The notes under the pieces were generated by a model. That model was not told where the DNA came from and made no database searches. It worked only from the letters and a program-made list of their open reading frames with translations. DNA of 64,000 nt from positions 62,001 through 126,000 of the forward strand of contig JAFTKX010000056.1 of assembly GCA_017453045.1 (NCBI GenBank), written 5' to 3'. This document shows, one piece after another, positions 2,572 through 59,669 of the stretch. This DNA is from Clostridia bacterium. Lineage in GTDB: Bacteria; Bacillota; Clostridia; Christensenellales; Borkfalkiaceae. Position numbers and translations under genes: made by a program. Within the stretch, counting starts at the first letter, position 1; each line of letters starts with the position of its first letter.

Positions 2572-3105
2572 ATGGAACTTAAAGGTTCAAAAACCGAAAG
2601 AAACTTATGGGAAGCGTTCGCAGGCGAAAGTCAAGCGAGAAACAAATACACCTATTTTGCAAGCGTTGCTAAAAAGGCAGGCTACGAACAAATAGCCGAA
2701 ATCTTTTTAAAGACTGCTGAAAACGAAAAAGAACACGCTAAACTTTGGTTTAAAGCGCTCGGCGAACTTGGCGACACCGCTCAAAATCTTCTTCACGCAG
2801 CCGAAGGCGAAAATTACGAGTGGACTGATATGTACGCTAAATTTGCAGAAGAAGCCGAAGAAGAAGGCTTTTTAGAACTTGCGTTCAAGTTTAGAGAAGT
2901 TGCCAAAATAGAAAAATCTCACGAAGAAAGATATAGAGCGCTTTTAAATAACGTCGAAATGAAAGCCGTATTTGAAAAAGCGGGCGAAACAATGTGGGAA
3001 TGCCGTAATTGCGGACATCTCGTAATGGGTAAAAAAGCCCCCGAAGTATGTCCTGTATGCGCTCATCCGCAGGCTTACTTCGAAGTTAGAAAAGAAAACT
3101 ACTAA
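2572..3105 (+). CDS. rbr: Rubrerythrin
   Basis: The 177-residue protein has an N-terminal ferritin-like four-helix domain with the diiron ligand pattern (Glu in [20 protein letters not shown], and a second pair in the EEAEEEGF and [10 protein letters not shown] segments). A C-terminal rubredoxin-like zinc ribbon/Fe(Cys)4 domain follows, with CRNCGH near residue 144 and CPVCAHP near 161. Rubrerythrins reduce hydrogen peroxide in the cytosol of anaerobes using NAD(P)H-derived electrons. The gene stands alone with its own consensus promoter at 2512-2540 and is followed directly by a block of structured repeats. The domain order is the classical ferritin-rubredoxin order. Confidence 0.96.
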
Positions 3106-3230
3106 TTTAAAGGTTTATAAACTGCATTATACTTCGTTTCTAAAAAGCGATAGCAACTGGGATGACCAACAAGGTCTATCCCACCTGCTATCGTTTTTTG
3201 AGCCTTGTCTAACTTGTTTCTAACCCTTTA
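3106..3230 (+). repeat. Structured repeat, copy A
   Basis: This is the first of a tandem array that begins at the last base of the rubrerythrin stop codon. The left end TTTAAAGGTTTATAAAC is imperfectly complementary to the right end TTTCTAACCCTTTA. Inside, GCGATAGCA pairs with TGCTATCGT and TGGGA pairs with TCCCA, separated by an AC/CC internal loop. The apex is TGACCAACAAGGTCTA at 3163-3178. A T-rich tract and GAGCCTT follow the stem, so it could also terminate rbr transcription. No ORF is present. Confidence 0.8.
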
Positions 3231-3231
3231 A

Positions 3232-3356
3232 TTTAAAGGCTATATACATCGCACCGCGTTGTTTACTGTATCAAAAAGGCGACCACAATGACCAACAAGG
3301 TCTATTGTGTCCGCCTTTTTTACGAGCCTTGCGGTGTTCGTATCTAATCCTTTAAA
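3232..3356 (+). repeat. Structured repeat, copy B
   Basis: Second unit of the array. The termini TTTAAAGGCTATATAC and GTATCTAATCCTTTAAA are complementary. A second stem pairs CACCGC (about 3251-3256) with GCGGTG (about 3331-3336). The central stem pairs AAAAAGGCG with CGCCTTTTT, then an AC/TC internal loop, then CACAA with TTGTG around the apex TGACCAACAAGGTCTA (3289-3304). GAGCCTTG follows. Confidence 0.8.
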
Positions 3357-3477
3357 TACTACATTGTAAGGGCAGAGCAAAATACACGGATGCAACGTCA
3401 CATTGCTGACCAACAAGGTCAACCAAGTCTTCTCGCGATCACGAGCCTTGGTGTGCTCGTATCTAAGCCTTTAAACG
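3351..3477 (+). repeat. Structured repeat, copy C (divergent)
   Basis: Third unit, sharing its first bases with the end of copy B. It keeps the TGACCAACAAGGTC motif (3407-3420), the GAGCCTTG block and the right end CTCGTATCTAAGCCTTTAAA. Its central part differs: it carries CACGGATGCAACGTCACATTGCT, which resembles the copies at 27165-27373, so it looks like a hybrid of two subtypes. Confidence 0.65.
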
Positions 3478-3478
3478 A

Positions 3479-3556
3479 GTTTAAAGCGAATATTTCGTAG
3501 GGGGGCTTGCCCCTCCCTATTCTAATTATTAACTTGCTCGTATCAAATTTTAAATA
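3479..3556 (+). repeat. Shortened repeat-like unit, copy D
   Basis: The end CTTGCTCGTATC plus TTTTAAA matches the family's right end and GTTTAAAGCGA resembles its left end, but the apical motif is replaced by the hairpin AGGGGGGCTTGCCCCTCCCT. The same hairpin recurs at 27397-27419. It is probably a degenerate or fused unit. Confidence 0.5.
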
Positions 3557-4660: not shown

Positions 4661-4926
4661 ACTGCGCAACTCTCTTTGACACGTCGCACCGAAGCGGAAA
4701 CGGGGCAGGTCGCTACTTCAAAGCTACCTTATGGCACACGCAAAATACCGTTTAGTGCTGCTATATTCCTATCCTGACACGGTTCGCGGGTTTACGTTGC
4801 ATAAGACCTTGTTATCAACACGCCTTACCACGCGCAGCCAACCATACGTCGTGCCGGGGAGAGTATTCAGCCTTGCTATAGCGGATTGCAAGTACAGGGC
4901 ACCGCTAACTCCCCGCCTAGCGCAGT
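4661..4926 (-). ncRNA. ffs: Signal recognition particle RNA, large (Bacillus/Clostridium) type
   Basis: On the minus strand the 5' part reads CTGCGCTAGGCGGGGAGTT followed by AGCGGTGCCCTGTAC and CAATCCGCTATAGC, the Alu-domain sequence of large Gram-positive SRP RNAs. The Ffh-binding domain reads GTGTCAGG-ATA-GGAA-TAT-AGCAGCAC, with the invariant GTCAGG/AGCAGC asymmetric loop and a GGAA tetraloop. The extreme 5' CTGCGC and 3' GCGCAG pair to close the molecule. The length is about 266 nt, typical of the class. The three base pairs under the tetraloop are A-T rather than the common TCC/GGA, a compensated change. It scaffolds Ffh for co-translational targeting. Confidence 0.95.
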
Positions 4927-4991: not shown

Positions 4992-5040
4992 TTTACACGG
5001 GTAAAAATTTTTGCTAATATATATTAGTAATTACTAATAT
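4992..5040 (+). promoter_or_regulatory. Promoter of the ileS leader with a 20-bp palindrome at +1
   Basis: TTTACA (4992-4997), 17 bp and TAATAT (5015-5020) give a good sigma-A promoter. Immediately downstream, 5021-5040 is a perfect palindrome with arms ATATTAGTAA and TTACTAATAT. The predicted start site (about 5027) lies inside it, so it may be an operator or simply an AT-rich start region. Confidence 0.7.
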
Positions 5041-5272
5041 TAAAGGCGTTGACGGAAACAAGTCTTTTAAAAAAGCCCACTACAGCGAGTCGGAACGGTG
5101 AGAGCCGACGTGAAGATTTTTAAAAGGTATCCTTCCCGAGCCGTAGGGCTGAAAGGTAACGATTAAGCCTTGCCGTTTACTTTGCGTTAAAAGTTTAAGT
5201 GCCGAACAAGTATTGTTTGGAAAAGAAGTGGTACCGCGAGCAAAATCGTCTTCTTGCAAGACGATTTTTTTT
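5041..5272 (+). promoter_or_regulatory. T-box leader of ileS
   Basis: The T-box bulge sequence AGAAGTGGTACCGCG is at 5224-5238 and the terminator hairpin is at 5245-5265 (arms ATCGTCTT and AAGACGAT, then a run of T). The upstream region has Stem I features: AGTCGGAACGGTGAGAGCCGAC, then CCCGAGCCGTAGGGCTGAAAGG. The codon ATC at 5129-5131 is the likely specifier and would match isoleucine. Uncharged tRNA-Ile should stabilise the antiterminator and allow ileS transcription. Recognition of the class is firm; the specifier position is inferred. Confidence 0.88.
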
Positions 5273-5393
5273 GTGCTTATAAACTTCGTTATGCGTCGTT
5301 TCTGTGTCGCCCTCAAAACTTTGGTGACCAACAAGGTCTACCAAATCTTTTCGGGCTCACGAGCCTTGCCTAACTCGTTTCTAAACCCAAAAA
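5268..5393 (+). repeat. Structured repeat, copy E1
   Basis: This copy starts in the T-tract of the T-box terminator. The left end is GTGCTTATAAACTTCG and the right end CTCGTTTCTAAACCC. TTTGG pairs with CCAAA around the apex TGACCAACAAGGTCTA (5325-5340), with the AC/TC internal loop beneath and a stem of AAA/TTT and CCC/GGG with two mismatches. GTTATGC faces GCCTAAC with a single mismatch, forming the second stem. Confidence 0.78.
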
Positions 5394-5514
5394 TTGTGCT
5401 TATAAACTTCGTTATGCATCGTTTCTGTTTCAAAAACCCGACGTCAATGACCAACAAGGTCTATTGACTCCGCGTTTTTTCACGAGCCTTGCCTAACTCG
5501 TTTCTAAACCCAAA
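5394..5514 (+). repeat. Structured repeat, copy E2
   Basis: Tandem to E1 at a 123-bp period, with nearly identical flanks but a different core. GTCAA pairs with TTGAC around TGACCAACAAGGTCTA (5448-5463), above the AC/TC loop and a lower stem of AAAAACCCG with CGCGTTTTTT. It ends about 77 bp before the ileS start codon, so both copies are in the ileS mRNA 5' leader. Confidence 0.78.
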
Positions 5515-5590
5515 TCGCACTTTATATCAATCAAAAAATCAACAAAATTTTAAAACTATAGTCAAAAGTTTAACTGTTAAAGGAGAAACT

Positions 5591-8500
5591 ATGTACAAAA
5601 AAGTAGACGCGTCGCTTAATTTTTTAGGCAGAGAAAAAGAAGTTATTGATTTTTGGAACGAAAATCACGTCTTTGAAAAGAGCATTGCTAAAAACGAAGG
5701 TAATGAAGAATTTACTTTTTACGACGGTCCGCCGACGGCAAACGGCAAACCGCATATAGGGCACGTTTTAACCCGTGTTATGAAAGACATTATCCCAAGA
5801 TACCAAACAATGAAAGGCAAGCACGTTTTAAGAAAAGCGGGCTGGGATACGCACGGTCTTCCCGTTGAACTTGAAATCGAGAAAAAACTCGGGCTTGACG
5901 GCAAGCAAGATATTGAAAAGTACGGTATTGAACCTTTCATAAAAGAGTGTAAGCAGTCTGTTTGGAAATACACTTCAGAGTGGAAAGTTATGAGCGAAAG
6001 GCTCGGATACTGGGTAGATATGGAAAAACCGTACGTAACTTACGACGATAACTATATCGAATCGGTATGGTGGGCGCTTAAAACTATCAGCGACAAAGGG
6101 CTTTTATACAAGGGTTATAAAATCGTTCCTTATTGTCCGCGTTGTGGAACGGCTCTTTCTTCGCACGAAGTTGCGCAAGGTTATAAAGACGTAAAAGAAA
6201 AGTCTATTTTCGTTAAATTTAAGGTTAAGGAAAAGGAGAATACCTATTTCCTCGTTTGGACTACTACGCCTTGGACTCTTTCTTCAAACGTTGCTCTTTG
6301 TATGCATGCCGATTACGACTACGTTGAAATTTCGGCAAACGGCGAAAATTATATTTTAGCCGAAGCGCTCGTTCCAACTCTTTTTGAAGATTACGAAATA
6401 ATCTCTCGTAAAAAAGGTAGCGAGTACGAAAGAGTAGAATACGAACCTATGTACCCTTACGCTCTCGGCACGTTCAAGCAAAAGGCTTACTACGTAACCA
6501 ACGCCGAATACGTAACGCTTACCGACGGTACGGGTATCGTCCACATTGCGCCTGCCTTTGGTGAAGACGACGCGCAGGTTGGTAGAAAATACGACCTTCC
6601 GTTTGTTCAAATGGTAAACGAAAGGGGTAGATTCGTTGAAGAAGTTACGCCGTATAAAGATATGTTCGTAAAAGACGCGGACAAACTTATCATAAAAGAC
6701 TTAAAAGAATCGGGCGTGTTATTTAAAGAAACTCTTTTTGAGCACAGTTATCCTTTCTGTTGGAGATGTAACACACCGCTACTTTACTATGCGAGAAGTT
6801 CTTGGTTTATAAAGACTACGGCTATAAAAGATCAACTTATCGCGTCGAACAAGTCGGTAAACTGGATGCCCGAAACTATCGGAACGGGTAGAATGGGCAA
6901 TTTCTTAGAAAACGTTATCGACTGGGGACTTTCGAGAGAAAGATACTGGGGAACTCCGCTTCCTATTTGGGTTTGCGACGACTGCTCAGAGATTCACGTA
7001 ATGGGCTCTAAAGCCGAACTCAAAGAAAAATGCGGACTTTCGGGCGATATTGAACTTCACCGTCCGTATATCGACGCTCCTACTTGCAAGTGCGGTAAGT
7101 GCGGTGGGGTAATGAGAAGGGTAAAAGAAGTTATCGACTGTTGGTTTGACTCTGGCTCAATGCCGTTTGCTCAACACCACTATCCTTTTGAAAATAAAGA
7201 ACTTTTTGAAAAGCAATTCCCTGCCGATTTTATATCCGAAGCAGTTGACCAAACTCGCGGATGGTTCTATACGCTTTTGACAATTTCGACCTTGCTTTTT
7301 GGCAAAGCGCCGTTTAAAAATTGTATCGTTTTAGGACACGTCAACGATAAAAACGGTCTTAAAATGAGTAAGCATATCGGAAACGTAGTAGATCCTTGGA
7401 CTATACTCGACAAGCAAGGCGCGGACGCTGTAAGATGGTATTTCTACACGGGTAGCGCGCCGTGGCTTCCGTCAAGATTCTCTGAAGAAGCCGTTTCCGA
7501 AGGTCAAAGAAAGTTTATGGGTACGCTTTGGAATACCTACGCGTTTTTCGTGTTATACGCGGACATTGATAAGTATAATCCTGCGGACTATAAACTTGAA
7601 GATTGTAAACTTTCTCTTATGGATAAATGGGCTTTGTCTAAACTCAACACTTTGATAAAGACGGTTGACGAAGGCTTGGCTGAATATAAGATTTTTGAAA
7701 CTGCAAGGCTTATTCAAGACTACGTTGACGAACTTTCCAACTGGTACGTTCGCCGTGGTAGAGAAAGATATTGGGGTAAGGAAATGACCGAAGATAAGGT
7801 TGCCGCTTACACCACTTTGTATACGATTTTAGTAACTTTAGCAAAGATAAGCGCGCCTTACGTTCCGTTTATGGCGGAGAGTATTTATCAAAATCTCGTT
7901 CCTAATTTCCATAAAGACGCGCCCGTTTCAGTTCACCTTTGCGACTTCCCCGTTTGCGACGAAAAGATGGTTGATAGCGAACTTGAAGAAGGTATGCAAG
8001 ACGTATTAGAAATAGTTGCTTTAGGTAGAGCGGCGAGAAACGGTAGCAATATTAAAAACCGTCAACCACTTAAAAAACTCTATGTTGCAACCGATAGAAA
8101 GGTTAAACTTACCGAAGGTCTTTACGAGATTGCAAGGGACGAACTCAACATTAAAGAGTTTGAAATTCTTGCCGACGCGTCGGCTTTCGTAATTTATAAA
8201 CTTAAACCGCAACTCAAGATTTTAGGACCTAAATACGGCTCTAAACTCGGCGCTATTAGGAATTTCCTTGACACTTGCAATGCAAAAGAAGTCGTTGCAA
8301 CGGTAAAAGCAGGCAAGACCTACACCGTAAATTTAGGTGGAACTGACGTCGAATTTACTTTAGACGACCTTTTGATTTCAAGCGAGCCTGCCGAAGGTTT
8401 CGTGTCTGAAAGTTCTCTTGGCTTAACCGTCGTTTTAGACGCTCACATAACCGAAGAACTTTTACTCGAAGGTATGGAAAGAGAACTCGTTTCTCGTATT

Positions 8501-8713
8501 CAAAATATGAGAAAGGAAGCCGGCTTTGAAGTTACCGACAGAATAGTTTTAGGATATAAAGCAGAGGGCGTTGCGGAAAGAGTATTAAAGCAAAACGCCG
8601 AAGAAATTAAGTCGGACGTTTTAGCCGAAAACGTTTTGGAAACGTTAGACGGATTTACCAAAGAATTTGATATAAACGGCGAAAAGGTTACCCTTTCGGT
8701 AAAAAAGGTATAA
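5591..8713 (+). CDS. ileS: Isoleucyl-tRNA synthetase
   Basis: The frame is open back to 5489, but the ATG at 5591 follows AAAGGAGA and starts MYKKVDASLNFLGREKEV, the usual N-terminus. That gives 1040 residues. The class I signatures are PHIGHV near residue 55 and KMSKH near residue 591, with an intact CP1 editing region between. Length and the KMSKHIGN form place it in the long, eukaryote-like (type 2) group common in Clostridia, which is often insensitive to mupirocin; that property is inferred, not shown. It charges tRNA-Ile in the cytosol. Regulation is by the upstream T-box. The methyltransferase gene begins 2 bp after its stop. Confidence 0.97.
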   Translation: MYKKVDASLNFLGREKEVIDFWNENHVFEKSIAKNEGNEEFTFYDGPPTANGKPHIGHVLTRVMKDIIPRYQTMKGKHVLRKAGWDTHGLPVELEIEKKLGLDGKQDIEKYGIEPFIKECKQSVWKYTSEWKVMSERLGYWVDMEKPYVTYDDNYIESVWWALKTISDKGLLYKGYKIVPYCPRCGTALSSHEVAQGYKDVKEKSIFVKFKVKEKENTYFLVWTTTPWTLSSNVALCMHADYDYVEISANGENYILAEALVPTLFEDYEIISRKKGSEYERVEYEPMYPYALGTFKQKAYYVTNAEYVTLTDGTGIVHIAPAFGEDDAQVGRKYDLPFVQMVNERGRFVEEVTPYKDMFVKDADKLIIKDLKESGVLFKETLFEHSYPFCWRCNTPLLYYARSSWFIKTTAIKDQLIASNKSVNWMPETIGTGRMGNFLENVIDWGLSRERYWGTPLPIWVCDDCSEIHVMGSKAELKEKCGLSGDIELHRPYIDAPTCKCGKCGGVMRRVKEVIDCWFDSGSMPFAQHHYPFENKELFEKQFPADFISEAVDQTRGWFYTLLTISTLLFGKAPFKNCIVLGHVNDKNGLKMSKHIGNVVDPWTILDKQGADAVRWYFYTGSAPWLPSRFSEEAVSEGQRKFMGTLWNTYAFFVLYADIDKYNPADYKLEDCKLSLMDKWALSKLNTLIKTVDEGLAEYKIFETARLIQDYVDELSNWYVRRGRERYWGKEMTEDKVAAYTTLYTILVTLAKISAPYVPFMAESIYQNLVPNFHKDAPVSVHLCDFPVCDEKMVDSELEEGMQDVLEIVALGRAARNGSNIKNRQPLKKLYVATDRKVKLTEGLYEIARDELNIKEFEILADASAFVIYKLKPQLKILGPKYGSKLGAIRNFLDTCNAKEVVATVKAGKTYTVNLGGTDVEFTLDDLLISSEPAEGFVSESSLGLTVVLDAHITEELLLEGMERELVSRIQNMRKEAGFEVTDRIVLGYKAEGVAERVLKQNAEEIKSDVLAENVLETLDGFTKEFDINGEKVTLSVKKV

Positions 8714-25814: not shown

Positions 25815-27041
25815 ATGGCACTCGTTAATAATGGAAGAAAAAGACCTAAAATTCGCAAAAAATACCAACCGCAAGATAGCGTTGTGGAAGAAACGGTTGT
25901 AGATAGCGTTGAAATGGAAGAAACTCCCACTGTGGAAGAAGTTGTCGAAACCGTAGAAGAAGTAGCGGTTGAAACTCCCGTAGAAATTGAAGAAACTACT
26001 GAAGAAATTGCAGAAGAAGTAGTTGAAACCGTTGAAGAAGTCGAAGAAGAACTTGACGAAGTTCCGCTTGAAATGAGCGAAGACGAAATGCAAGTCGCTT
26101 TAGACGAAGAAGGCAGTTTAGACGGTAGCGCTGAAGAAGTTGAAGAACTCGCGTCGGAAGAAACGGTAGAAGAAACTTTGGAAGAAGTCGAAGAAGTTGT
26201 AGAAGTCACCGAAACCGAAGATTTGCCGATTGAACAACCTGTCGAAGAAAATCCCGTAGTGGACGAGCCAAGCGAAGAAATCGTTGAAGAACCGATTGAA
26301 GAAACTGTTGAAGTCGTTGAACAACCCGTTGAAGAAGTCGTTGAAACTGCGGTAGACGAGCCTTTAACCGAAACTGCTGAAGAAGTGGTTGAAGTTGTTG
26401 AAGAAACTGTTGAAGTTGCTCCGATTGAAAACGTCGAAGAAAAACCTAAAAAAGACGAATTTAAACTTACAGCGCCCGCAAATTTAGAAGATATTTTGGC
26501 TAATATTTGCACCAAGAGAGCGCGTAAACTTATATATAGACCGAGCGAAGTTATCTTCTCGCACACGACCACCGTTTTAGGAACGGACAAGGCTAACGAC
26601 GAAAAGATTAAGATTAAAAATATTCTCGACGCAGAAATTAAGCAAGGCGTAAAACTCGGCTATCTCGACAAGTTCGACGGTCTTAAAATGAGCGAACTTA
26701 AAGAAGAATACGAAAACGATATCGTTTACGAATACGCAGACCAAGAATTTAAGCGTACGGGTATACTTTTAGACGGCGACAAGGTAAAAGTTTACGTTTA
26801 CGACTGGGATATGAAGGCTTGCCATCACGTAGGTTATATCAACGACGAAAGCGCCGAACTCGTTAAACCTTATATATTAGACAGAGAAAAATACAGTTTT
26901 GATATAAATGGTATTATCGTTGGCGGTAAGTATAAAAAGATTATCAAAGACGAAAAGAGCGGTAAAATTACCGTCGAAAAAGGAAACGACGGAAATCTCG
27001 GCTTGGAGATAGATATTAACGTTATTAATCGCAAAGACTAA
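25815..27041 (+). CDS. Very acidic Val/Glu-repeat protein with a conserved-looking C-terminal domain
   Basis: The 408-residue protein starts with a short basic tail (RKRPKIRKKYQP, residues 7-18), then about 190 residues built from degenerate VEE, VVE, EEV and ETV repeats, with many Glu and almost no aromatic residues. Residues of about 217-408 form a normal globular segment: LEDILANICTKRARKLIYRP, a Glu/Lys helix, then KVKVYVYDWDMKACHHVGYINDE and a repeat-free end. The VYVYDW..HHVGYI stretch is faintly like HIRAN domains, which bind DNA ends; this is only a resemblance. No signal peptide. AGGAGAG precedes the ATG. A Ser/Thr-rich ORF on the other strand is a shadow of the repeats. Confidence 0.85.
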   Translation: MALVNNGRKRPKIRKKYQPQDSVVEETVVDSVEMEETPTVEEVVETVEEVAVETPVEIEETTEEIAEEVVETVEEVEEELDEVPLEMSEDEMQVALDEEGSLDGSAEEVEELASEETVEETLEEVEEVVEVTETEDLPIEQPVEENPVVDEPSEEIVEEPIEETVEVVEQPVEEVVETAVDEPLTETAEEVVEVVEETVEVAPIENVEEKPKKDEFKLTAPANLEDILANICTKRARKLIYRPSEVIFSHTTTVLGTDKANDEKIKIKNILDAEIKQGVKLGYLDKFDGLKMSELKEEYENDIVYEYADQEFKRTGILLDGDKVKVYVYDWDMKACHHVGYINDESAELVKPYILDREKYSFDINGIIVGGKYKKIIKDEKSGKITVEKGNDGNLGLEIDINVINRKD

Positions 27042-27042
27042 T

Positions 27043-27171
27043 TTTTGACGGCTTATATACGTCGCAAAAGTGCGTTACTGTTTCAAAAGGGCGACCATGA
27101 TGACCAGCAAGGTCTATCGTGTCCGCCCTTTTTTCACGAGCCTTCTTTTGCTTGTATCTAAATCGTCAAAA
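27043..27171 (+). repeat. Structured repeat, copy F1
   Basis: The ends TTTTGACGG and CGTCAAAA pair, in contrast to TTTAAAGG/CCTTTAAA elsewhere: a compensatory change. GCAAAAG (27064-27070) pairs with CTTTTGC. The core pairs AAAAGGGCG with CGCCCTTTT and CATGA with TCGTG (one G-T wobble), with the AC/TC internal loop, around TGACCAGCAAGGTCTA (27101-27116). It begins 1 bp after the acidic-protein stop codon. Confidence 0.8.
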
Positions 27172-27269
27172 CGAGTGTAAAAGGGCGTGGATAAACACGG
27201 AAGCAACGTCACGTTGCTCTATCTCACCCGTTACCACTTTTTGAGCCTTGTCTTGCTTGTATCTAAACC
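27165..27269 (+). repeat. Structured repeat, copy F2 (second subtype)
   Basis: A 105-bp unit that shares GTCAAAACGAG, GAGCCTTG and CTTGTATCTAAACCGTC with F1 but has a different apex: AGCAACG-TCA-CGTTGCT. The same apex type occurs in copy C. Confidence 0.75.
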
Positions 27270-27373
27270 GTCAAAACGAGTGTAAAAGGGCGTGGATAAA
27301 CACGGAAGCAACGTCACGTTGCTCTATCTCACCCGTTACCACTTTTGAGCCTTCTTTTGCTTGTATCTAAACC
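27270..27373 (+). repeat. Structured repeat, copy F3 (tandem duplicate of F2)
   Basis: Nearly identical to F2 over its full length. Differences are one missing T after CCAC and CTTTTG for GTCTTG near the right end, so the duplication is recent. Confidence 0.75.
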
Positions 27374-27396
27374 GTCCTACTCAATAAACGTTTCGT

Positions 27397-27419
27397 AGGG
27401 GAGGGGCTTGCCCCTCCCT
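27397..27419. repeat. Hairpin shared with copy D
   Basis: TTTCGTAGGGG plus GGGGCTTGCCCCTCCCT forms a GC-rich hairpin nearly identical to 3495-3517. It lies next to the repeat array in both places. Sequences of this type are common short palindromic repeats in gut Clostridia, from general knowledge. Confidence 0.5.
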
Positions 27420-27495
27420 TTAATATTTGAAAATAGTGAAAAGACAAAATATCACCTTATTTTCACATAAATTTATTGTAAAAAATAACAATTTC

Positions 27496-59388: not shown

Positions 59389-59423
59389 TTTTCTTTTGGC
59401 TCTATCACAACTCGTGACTGCTA

Positions 59424-59549
59424 TTTAAAGGCTTATACACTTCGCAATACTAGTCTTTTTACGGCTTTTGCAATTCCTATTACTAGCAAGGTAATTCCCT
59501 TGCAAAAATCTCGTAAAAATCCCGTCTTGCTCGTATCTAACCCTTTAAA
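59424..59549 (+). repeat. Structured repeat, copy H (divergent apex)
   Basis: The ends TTTAAAGGCTTATACAC and CTCGTATCTAACCCTTTAAA are family-typical. GCAA pairs with TTGC beneath, and the core has an outer TTTTTACG/CGTAAAAA stem and inner ATTAC-TAGCAAG-GTAAT, keeping the AGCAAGG loop while the apical stem has changed. The 326 bp between the metallophosphoesterase gene and pheS hold only this, the terminator and a promoter-like TATACTTATTATTATAA. Confidence 0.75.
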
Positions 59550-59669
59550 TTTTATCAGTCGTACATTGTGACATAGCCATTCTTTTTTTCTGCGTTAAAC
59601 AGTTTACAATAATTTTTATATTTGTTATACTTATTATTATAAGTAATAAAACTTTTTAGGAAGTGGAAT

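Follow-up and report, generated by a model that had tools for sequence, protein, structure and literature searches.

The two repeats E1 and E2 in the leader of ileS are, with a probability of about 60%, two copies of a dispersed and probably non-autonomous DNA hairpin element, which has inserted behind the terminator of the ileS T-box and is tolerated in this position. They lie in a window of 64,000 nt, that is, the whole stretch of DNA analysed here (contig coordinates C52:67266-67394 and C52:67389-67517, the window position being the contig position minus 62000). The repeats are not peculiar to ileS, as the family model recognises at least four further copies in the same window. The family can be described as an ERIC-like dispersed stem-loop repeat that is unusual for its strand lock, the DNA-like evolution of its stems and its host-derived arms. 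The ileS locus is composed as follows.

5040-5256, + strand: T-box leader of ileS (Rfam RF00230, 115.6 bits)
5242-5268, + strand: stem of the intrinsic terminator of the T-box (terminator scan), whose T-run is the insertion side of E1
5266-5394, + strand: E1, first copy of the hairpin element (family model 124 bits, E 3.9e-27; z -4.4)
5389-5517, + strand: E2, second copy, in tandem to E1 (family model 118 bits, E 1.6e-25; z -4.2)
5591-8713, + strand: ileS, isoleucine--tRNA ligase (TIGR00392, 998.5 bits against a cut-off of 621)

The hairpin pair and its family

The original prediction placed two structured repeats between the T-box terminator and ileS, and this is borne out by a tandem repeat of two copies with a 123-nt period and 77% matches at 5271-5514 (TRF), by the family model, and by the folds, each copy forming one long hairpin (-33.8 kcal/mol for E1 and -28.2 kcal/mol for E2) that beats 200 of 200 shuffles. 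E1 does begin inside the terminator T-tract, as had been claimed, and the distance of some 318 nt proposed between the T-tract and the start codon agrees with the roughly 320 nt measured to the ATG at 5591. It is also right that the repeats belong to the read-through portion of the ileS mRNA. The outer parts of E1 and E2 are near-identical (the first ~39 and the last ~36 nt are common), but their central stem modules differ. The only Rfam matches in the window are the T-box and a large bacterial SRP RNA (4662-4925, - strand, 175 bits), which lies divergently upstream of the ileS T-box and is matched at 11 of 13 ileS loci of the genus.

A search that allowed one mismatch found the loop motif TGACCAACAAGGTCTA at 43 places in the genome and at none in the reversed control. 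A covariance model of 48 pairs (R1), built from an alignment of 21 copies, gave 76 hits at E <= 0.01 in the 1.62-Mb draft genome, six of them in the window. These copies are multiple, intergenic and share a quasi-palindromic fold of ~125 nt, as a dispersed stem-loop repeat should. Besides E1 and E2, the window holds the following copies.

3104-3233, + strand: copy directly after the stop codon of the rubrerythrin gene (2572-3105, RuberyRbr; 129.6 bits; z -7.8)
3230-3357, + strand: copy in tandem with the preceding one (113.4 bits)
27042-27171, + strand: copy directly after the stop codon of ORF 25815-27041 (125.7 bits; z -8.2)
59422-59550, + strand: diverged copy inside a longer inverted repeat, 3' of a terminator (50.3 bits, E 1.6e-8; the site is empty in the relative L226)

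ORF 25815-27041 itself encodes 408 aa with many short Glu/Val-rich repeats and has no NCBIfam match.

Beyond this genome, 132 of the 201 genomes searched from the same family gave a hit at E <= 1e-3, a figure to be read with the facts that the data are draft MAGs with genes from a simple ORF caller, that E-values are rough and that the model may reward any long hairpin. Only strong hits were therefore trusted: those at E <= about 1e-15 come from some nine genera, all in this family of uncultured Clostridia, while weak hits in several genera of the family, and those at the level of the order (E 1e-9 to 1e-12), may be generic long hairpins and were not counted. A fuller search of nine genomes returned 8 to 63 copies each, and the exact motif occurs 0 to 50 times per genome within the genus. 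Named records that carry the element are uncultured Clostridia, nearly all labelled ruminant gut. The element matched none of the 4227 Rfam families at gathering scores or at relaxed E-values, an IMG/VR scan with the core pattern returned one contig only and hence no sign of a phage-borne element, and our literature search found no description of the hairpin family.

Several composite forms were also observed. At 27138-27376 and 3358-3478 of the window, another module, containing the hairpin GCAACGTCACGTTGC (or CAACGTCACATTG), precedes the 3' half of the element, and the composite at 27138 forms a tandem array with a period of 105 nt. Unpaired 3' halves occur often in the sequence analysed (122 of 361). 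A G+C-rich palindromic repeat of the GTAGGGGAGGGGCTTGCCCCTCCC type (about 3495-3520 and 27395-27425) recurs beside arrays of the element, and is also present at C35 and C52:17510. The region 59395-59580 holds a diverged subtype inside a longer inverted repeat (GGCTATGTCACAACTCGTGACTGA ... TCAGTCATACGTTATGACACAGCC type), and similar composites at C1:12320, C16:9974, C25:32563 and C48 are usually 3' of terminators. Several copies, in more than one genome (C50 and C65 of the own genome; L184; L264), break off abruptly and pass into one common other sequence, GCGTCGCAAATCG(A/G)C....

Strand, gene ends and host-matching arms

Each of 26 contigs of the own genome has its copies on a single strand, which by GC skew is always the G-rich (leading) one. 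With 78.5% of genes running with the G-rich strand, agreement of all 49 clusters by gene direction alone would have a P of 7e-6. Among the copies listed for relatives, a single strand is used in 34 of 36 multi-copy contigs and 112 of 114 copies are on the majority strand of their contig, GC skew agreeing in 18 of 19 sampled pieces with one-strand copies. At G060:C20 the copies switch strand where the skew changes sign, and G060:C4 holds one true exception to the lock. Gaps between two lagging-strand genes make up 0 of 42 occupied gaps, where 12-15% would be expected (P about 0.001-0.005). Of the same 42, 3 follow a lagging-strand gene, compared to 30% of the unoccupied gaps. Orientation is thus fixed relative to replication in the own contigs and in relatives, as in IS200/IS605-like elements, which insert into the single-stranded DNA of the lagging-strand template (PMC6006769). 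Since the G-rich strand and the lagging-strand template are identical in sequence, this single-stranded DNA could be the entry site of the element.

The second orientation rule concerns the neighbouring gene, as 66 of the 68 copies that have a preceding gene are in sense with it, the two exceptions being E1 and E2, which follow the T-box terminator and are in sense with ileS. Where a site holds a copy, the first one typically begins no more than a few bases from a stop codon, or right on the T-run of a terminator. Entry into the lagging-strand template at T-rich gene ends would explain both orientation rules at once.

The outer 3' arm is complementary to the end of the host gene. In 91 copies near a stop codon, it can pair with the preceding host sequence at 9.4 of 14 positions, compared to 8.0 when arms are swapped among copies (maximum 8.4 over 200 shuffles, none as high as 9.4). 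At C1:4247, for example, host CTGAAGACG stands against arm CGTCTTCAG, and at the same site G006, the closest relative, has neither element nor arm, its gene continuing a few codons further. In L123 the gene end GKIQRNKL, which presumably resembles an acyl-CoA ligase C-terminal motif, has its codons AGAAATAAGTTA facing TAACTCATTTCT. The copy at C52:17510 sits between a stop codon and a terminator that adjoins the stop codon in a relative, and should therefore be transcribed there.

Orthologous sites were found both occupied and empty, at ileS and elsewhere, as expected of a mobile element, though the unoccupied ones could partly be deletions. The automatic search of empty sites found no clean target duplication, most of its results being module exchanges or duplications in tandem. 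Owing to the variable outer arms, neither a target duplication nor an exact junction or sharp end of the element can be fixed.

Stem evolution and a possible route of movement

The common hairpin begins with the outer arms, followed by TTA.AUAC / GUAU.UAA, a variable 6-pair helix and the fixed GUU(U/A) / GAGC, beyond which lie a variable long stem and the loop GACC-AACAA-GGUC. Internal loops are the same across copies, whereas stems vary widely. In a set of 41 copies, mostly from other genomes, double-sided changes were seen at 38 of 48 pairs and the covariation score was 0.487, compared to 0.134 for shuffled and at most 0.105 for slid partners; the own-genome set gave 0.509 against 0.141 shuffled. 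The kind of pair exchanged was compared with that at variable stem pairs of SRP RNA and the ileS T-box of the same genus, which contain G-U at 17.8% and 20.4% and A-C at 1.4% and 1.9%, respectively. In the element, the unguided MAFFT alignment A1 with the structure given contains G-U at 1.4% and A-C at 1.8% (alignments A2-A4 were fitted to structure, A3 to the model), and three other random sets with predicted structures contain G-U at 4-6% and A-C at 2-2.5%. Compensatory changes through common G-U intermediates, the mark of RNA selection, are accordingly not what the element displays. Given this scarcity of G-U, changes are mostly whole Watson-Crick exchanges, which is what arm-to-arm template switching in replication would yield, a process that creates and repairs hairpin stems (PMC8794818). 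This points to stems that evolve more like DNA hairpins than RNA. The constancy of the internal loops, by contrast, requires selection, with some factor recognising the hairpin in its folded state.

It could be argued that the family is a structured RNA element under selection in the mRNA, a 3'-end stabiliser or processing site as has been proposed for REP and ERIC. It would have been spread by an unspecified mobile mechanism, and in the ileS leader it would adjust the stability or translation of the RNA. The sense orientation of copies that follow genes, often right after the stop codon, the one copy between stop codon and terminator and the strong common fold all agree with such a role, and in Yersinia ERIC acts on neighbouring genes via RNA hairpins (PMC2267715). 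We nevertheless consider it unlikely, as G-U pairs are few in comparison to RNA controls from the same genus, orientation also tracks the replication strand, over and above the direction of genes, terminators precede many of the copies, E1 and E2 are located in a 5' leader, and some species of the genus have no or few copies.

In the explanation that we prefer, a mobile DNA hairpin, the element would enter the single-stranded lagging-strand template at T-rich gene ends, driven by a putative trans-acting enzyme. DNA-polymerase template switching within the hairpin would then copy one arm, plus preceding host sequence, into the other, and switching of this kind during replication may refresh the hairpin. 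A point against this explanation is that template switching alone does not supply the selection that fixed internal loops need, and among Y1 transposase, integron integrase and reverse transcriptase no fitting enzyme candidate was found. A reverse transcriptase is present in 3 of 15 genus genomes, which does not fit a mobiliser, and integron integrase TIGR02249 is below cut-off in 15 of 15. A strict pattern search for an ORF flanked by the two halves of a copy returned only truncated or rearranged halves.

Y1 transposases deserve closer attention, since the hairpin, a strand locked to that of the lagging-strand template and a position after T-rich sequence all resemble IS200/IS605 biology; hairpins and a lagging-strand bias are also shared with the MITEs of that family. 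A non-autonomous derivative of an IS200/IS605-type or TnpA-REP (RAYT) element is nonetheless rather improbable. In G006 a Y1 gene lies 238 nt behind a copy, but the other two intact IS200 loci checked have none nearby, and a copy is near a Y1 gene at just 1 of 4 loci with an intact Y1 domain, which speaks against a REP/RAYT system. The IS200 ends in G006, G002 and G008 are unlike those of the element when read by eye. Mobilisation by Y1 in trans fares no better: the gene is missing in several copy-rich drafts (G000, which is the own genome, G001, G010 and G021, incomplete as these are), and across the family it is not associated with copy number, being present in 6 of 28 copy-rich genomes and 69 of 201 overall. 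At G000:C59 near 15302 (- strand) and in L309, a truncated element is joined at the loop to a sequence like an IS200 right end (GAACTGGTGGTTTG); in G000 itself no Y1 gene was found despite this junction.

The near-complete strand lock, together with tandem growth (seen at ileS and also at other sites) and module exchange, might even suggest that no transposition takes place, copies arising from recombination and template switching or being kept as strand-polarised signals like KOPS or Chi. This is very unlikely, as new copies at unrelated genes require a copy-and-insert step, and genomes of the same genus with no or few copies argue that the element has no essential role.

Likeness to known repeats is partial in each case. 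REP, BIME and REPIN sequences are palindromic, occur in many copies at the 3' end of transcription units and form both single units and clusters (PMC6006769). The element shares this abundance, palindromic form and location, and differs from REP/RAYT in its longer unit and one fixed orientation, inverted doublets and the GT[AG]G foot not being seen and no Y1 gene being associated. With ERIC (about 127 bp) it has no recognised sequence relation, and by description it is set apart by stems that differ widely among copies around fixed internal loops, by the leading-strand lock and by an outer arm that matches the host gene end. Integron attC sites are folded recombination sites located just after stop codons, with variable stems and conserved unpaired bases. 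The element is likewise folded, follows stop codons and has variable stems; unlike attC, it lies behind unrelated chromosomal genes and forms no cassette arrays. The bcr1-type repeats of the Bacillus cereus group are multi-copy, mobile-like repeats of 100-150 nt in Firmicutes, and by description alone the element is similar to them in being multi-copy and mobile-like, in its length and in its host phylum.

The ileS leader across relatives

Spacing at ileS was compared in the twelve genus genomes with a placeable T-box core, this one counted. From the T-box core to the ATG there are 363 nt here with two copies, 244 nt in G006 with one E2-like copy, and 280 nt in G010 with one copy that differs from that here; the remaining nine, close relatives among them, have no copy and a spacing of 59-150 nt, in keeping with the claim that a T-box is normally close to its gene. 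The central module of E1 shares 95% identity with its counterpart in the copy at C50:21089, and the outer part just 79%. As G006 holds the simpler one-copy state, E1 beside E2 is best read, on sequence comparison, as a tandem duplication after which the central module would have been exchanged with that of another genomic copy.

The original prediction left a choice between an element that tolerates insertion in leaders and one that was recruited there. Tolerance gains from this comparison, as the copies are absent in most of the genus, vary in number and type and are found at dozens of unrelated genes; being lineage-specific at ileS, they indicate that the leader tolerates them. Recruitment into ileS regulation, for instance as an additional attenuator downstream of the T-box or as a means to control stability there, could appeal to the location in the read-through leader, to the two copies kept in this genome and to the different copy at the same place in G010, but is highly improbable in view of a locus that is not conserved (a test for a cis-regulatory RNA that fails with the element missing in nine genus genomes), a terminator and promoter scan that found no such site on the + strand 3' of E1 and E2, the dozens of unrelated genes followed by the same element, and stems of more DNA-like evolution. 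E1 and E2 hence look like a tolerated insertion rather than a regulator, regulation of ileS by the repeats is not supported, and their sole effect on ileS is likely a lengthened read-through leader.

The interval from a T-box terminator to its gene can therefore take up 250 nt of hairpin, and a long leader is no sign of extra regulation. It is possible, and we offer it only tentatively, that the family stands for mobile DNA hairpins of a new class, with insertion confined to the lagging-strand template behind gene ends, in which the mobile unit is essentially a fold: its stems, with outer arms copied from the host gene end, would be rewritten by template switching, and its fixed internal loops would serve as identity for an undescribed enzyme. 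The strand lock makes the copies usable as markers of replication direction in draft contigs. Moreover, the family lends itself to a natural test between DNA template switching and stepwise RNA selection as the origin of compensatory stem changes, since it offers many copies per genome, G-U control RNAs from those genomes and host-derived arms in which the event is recorded.
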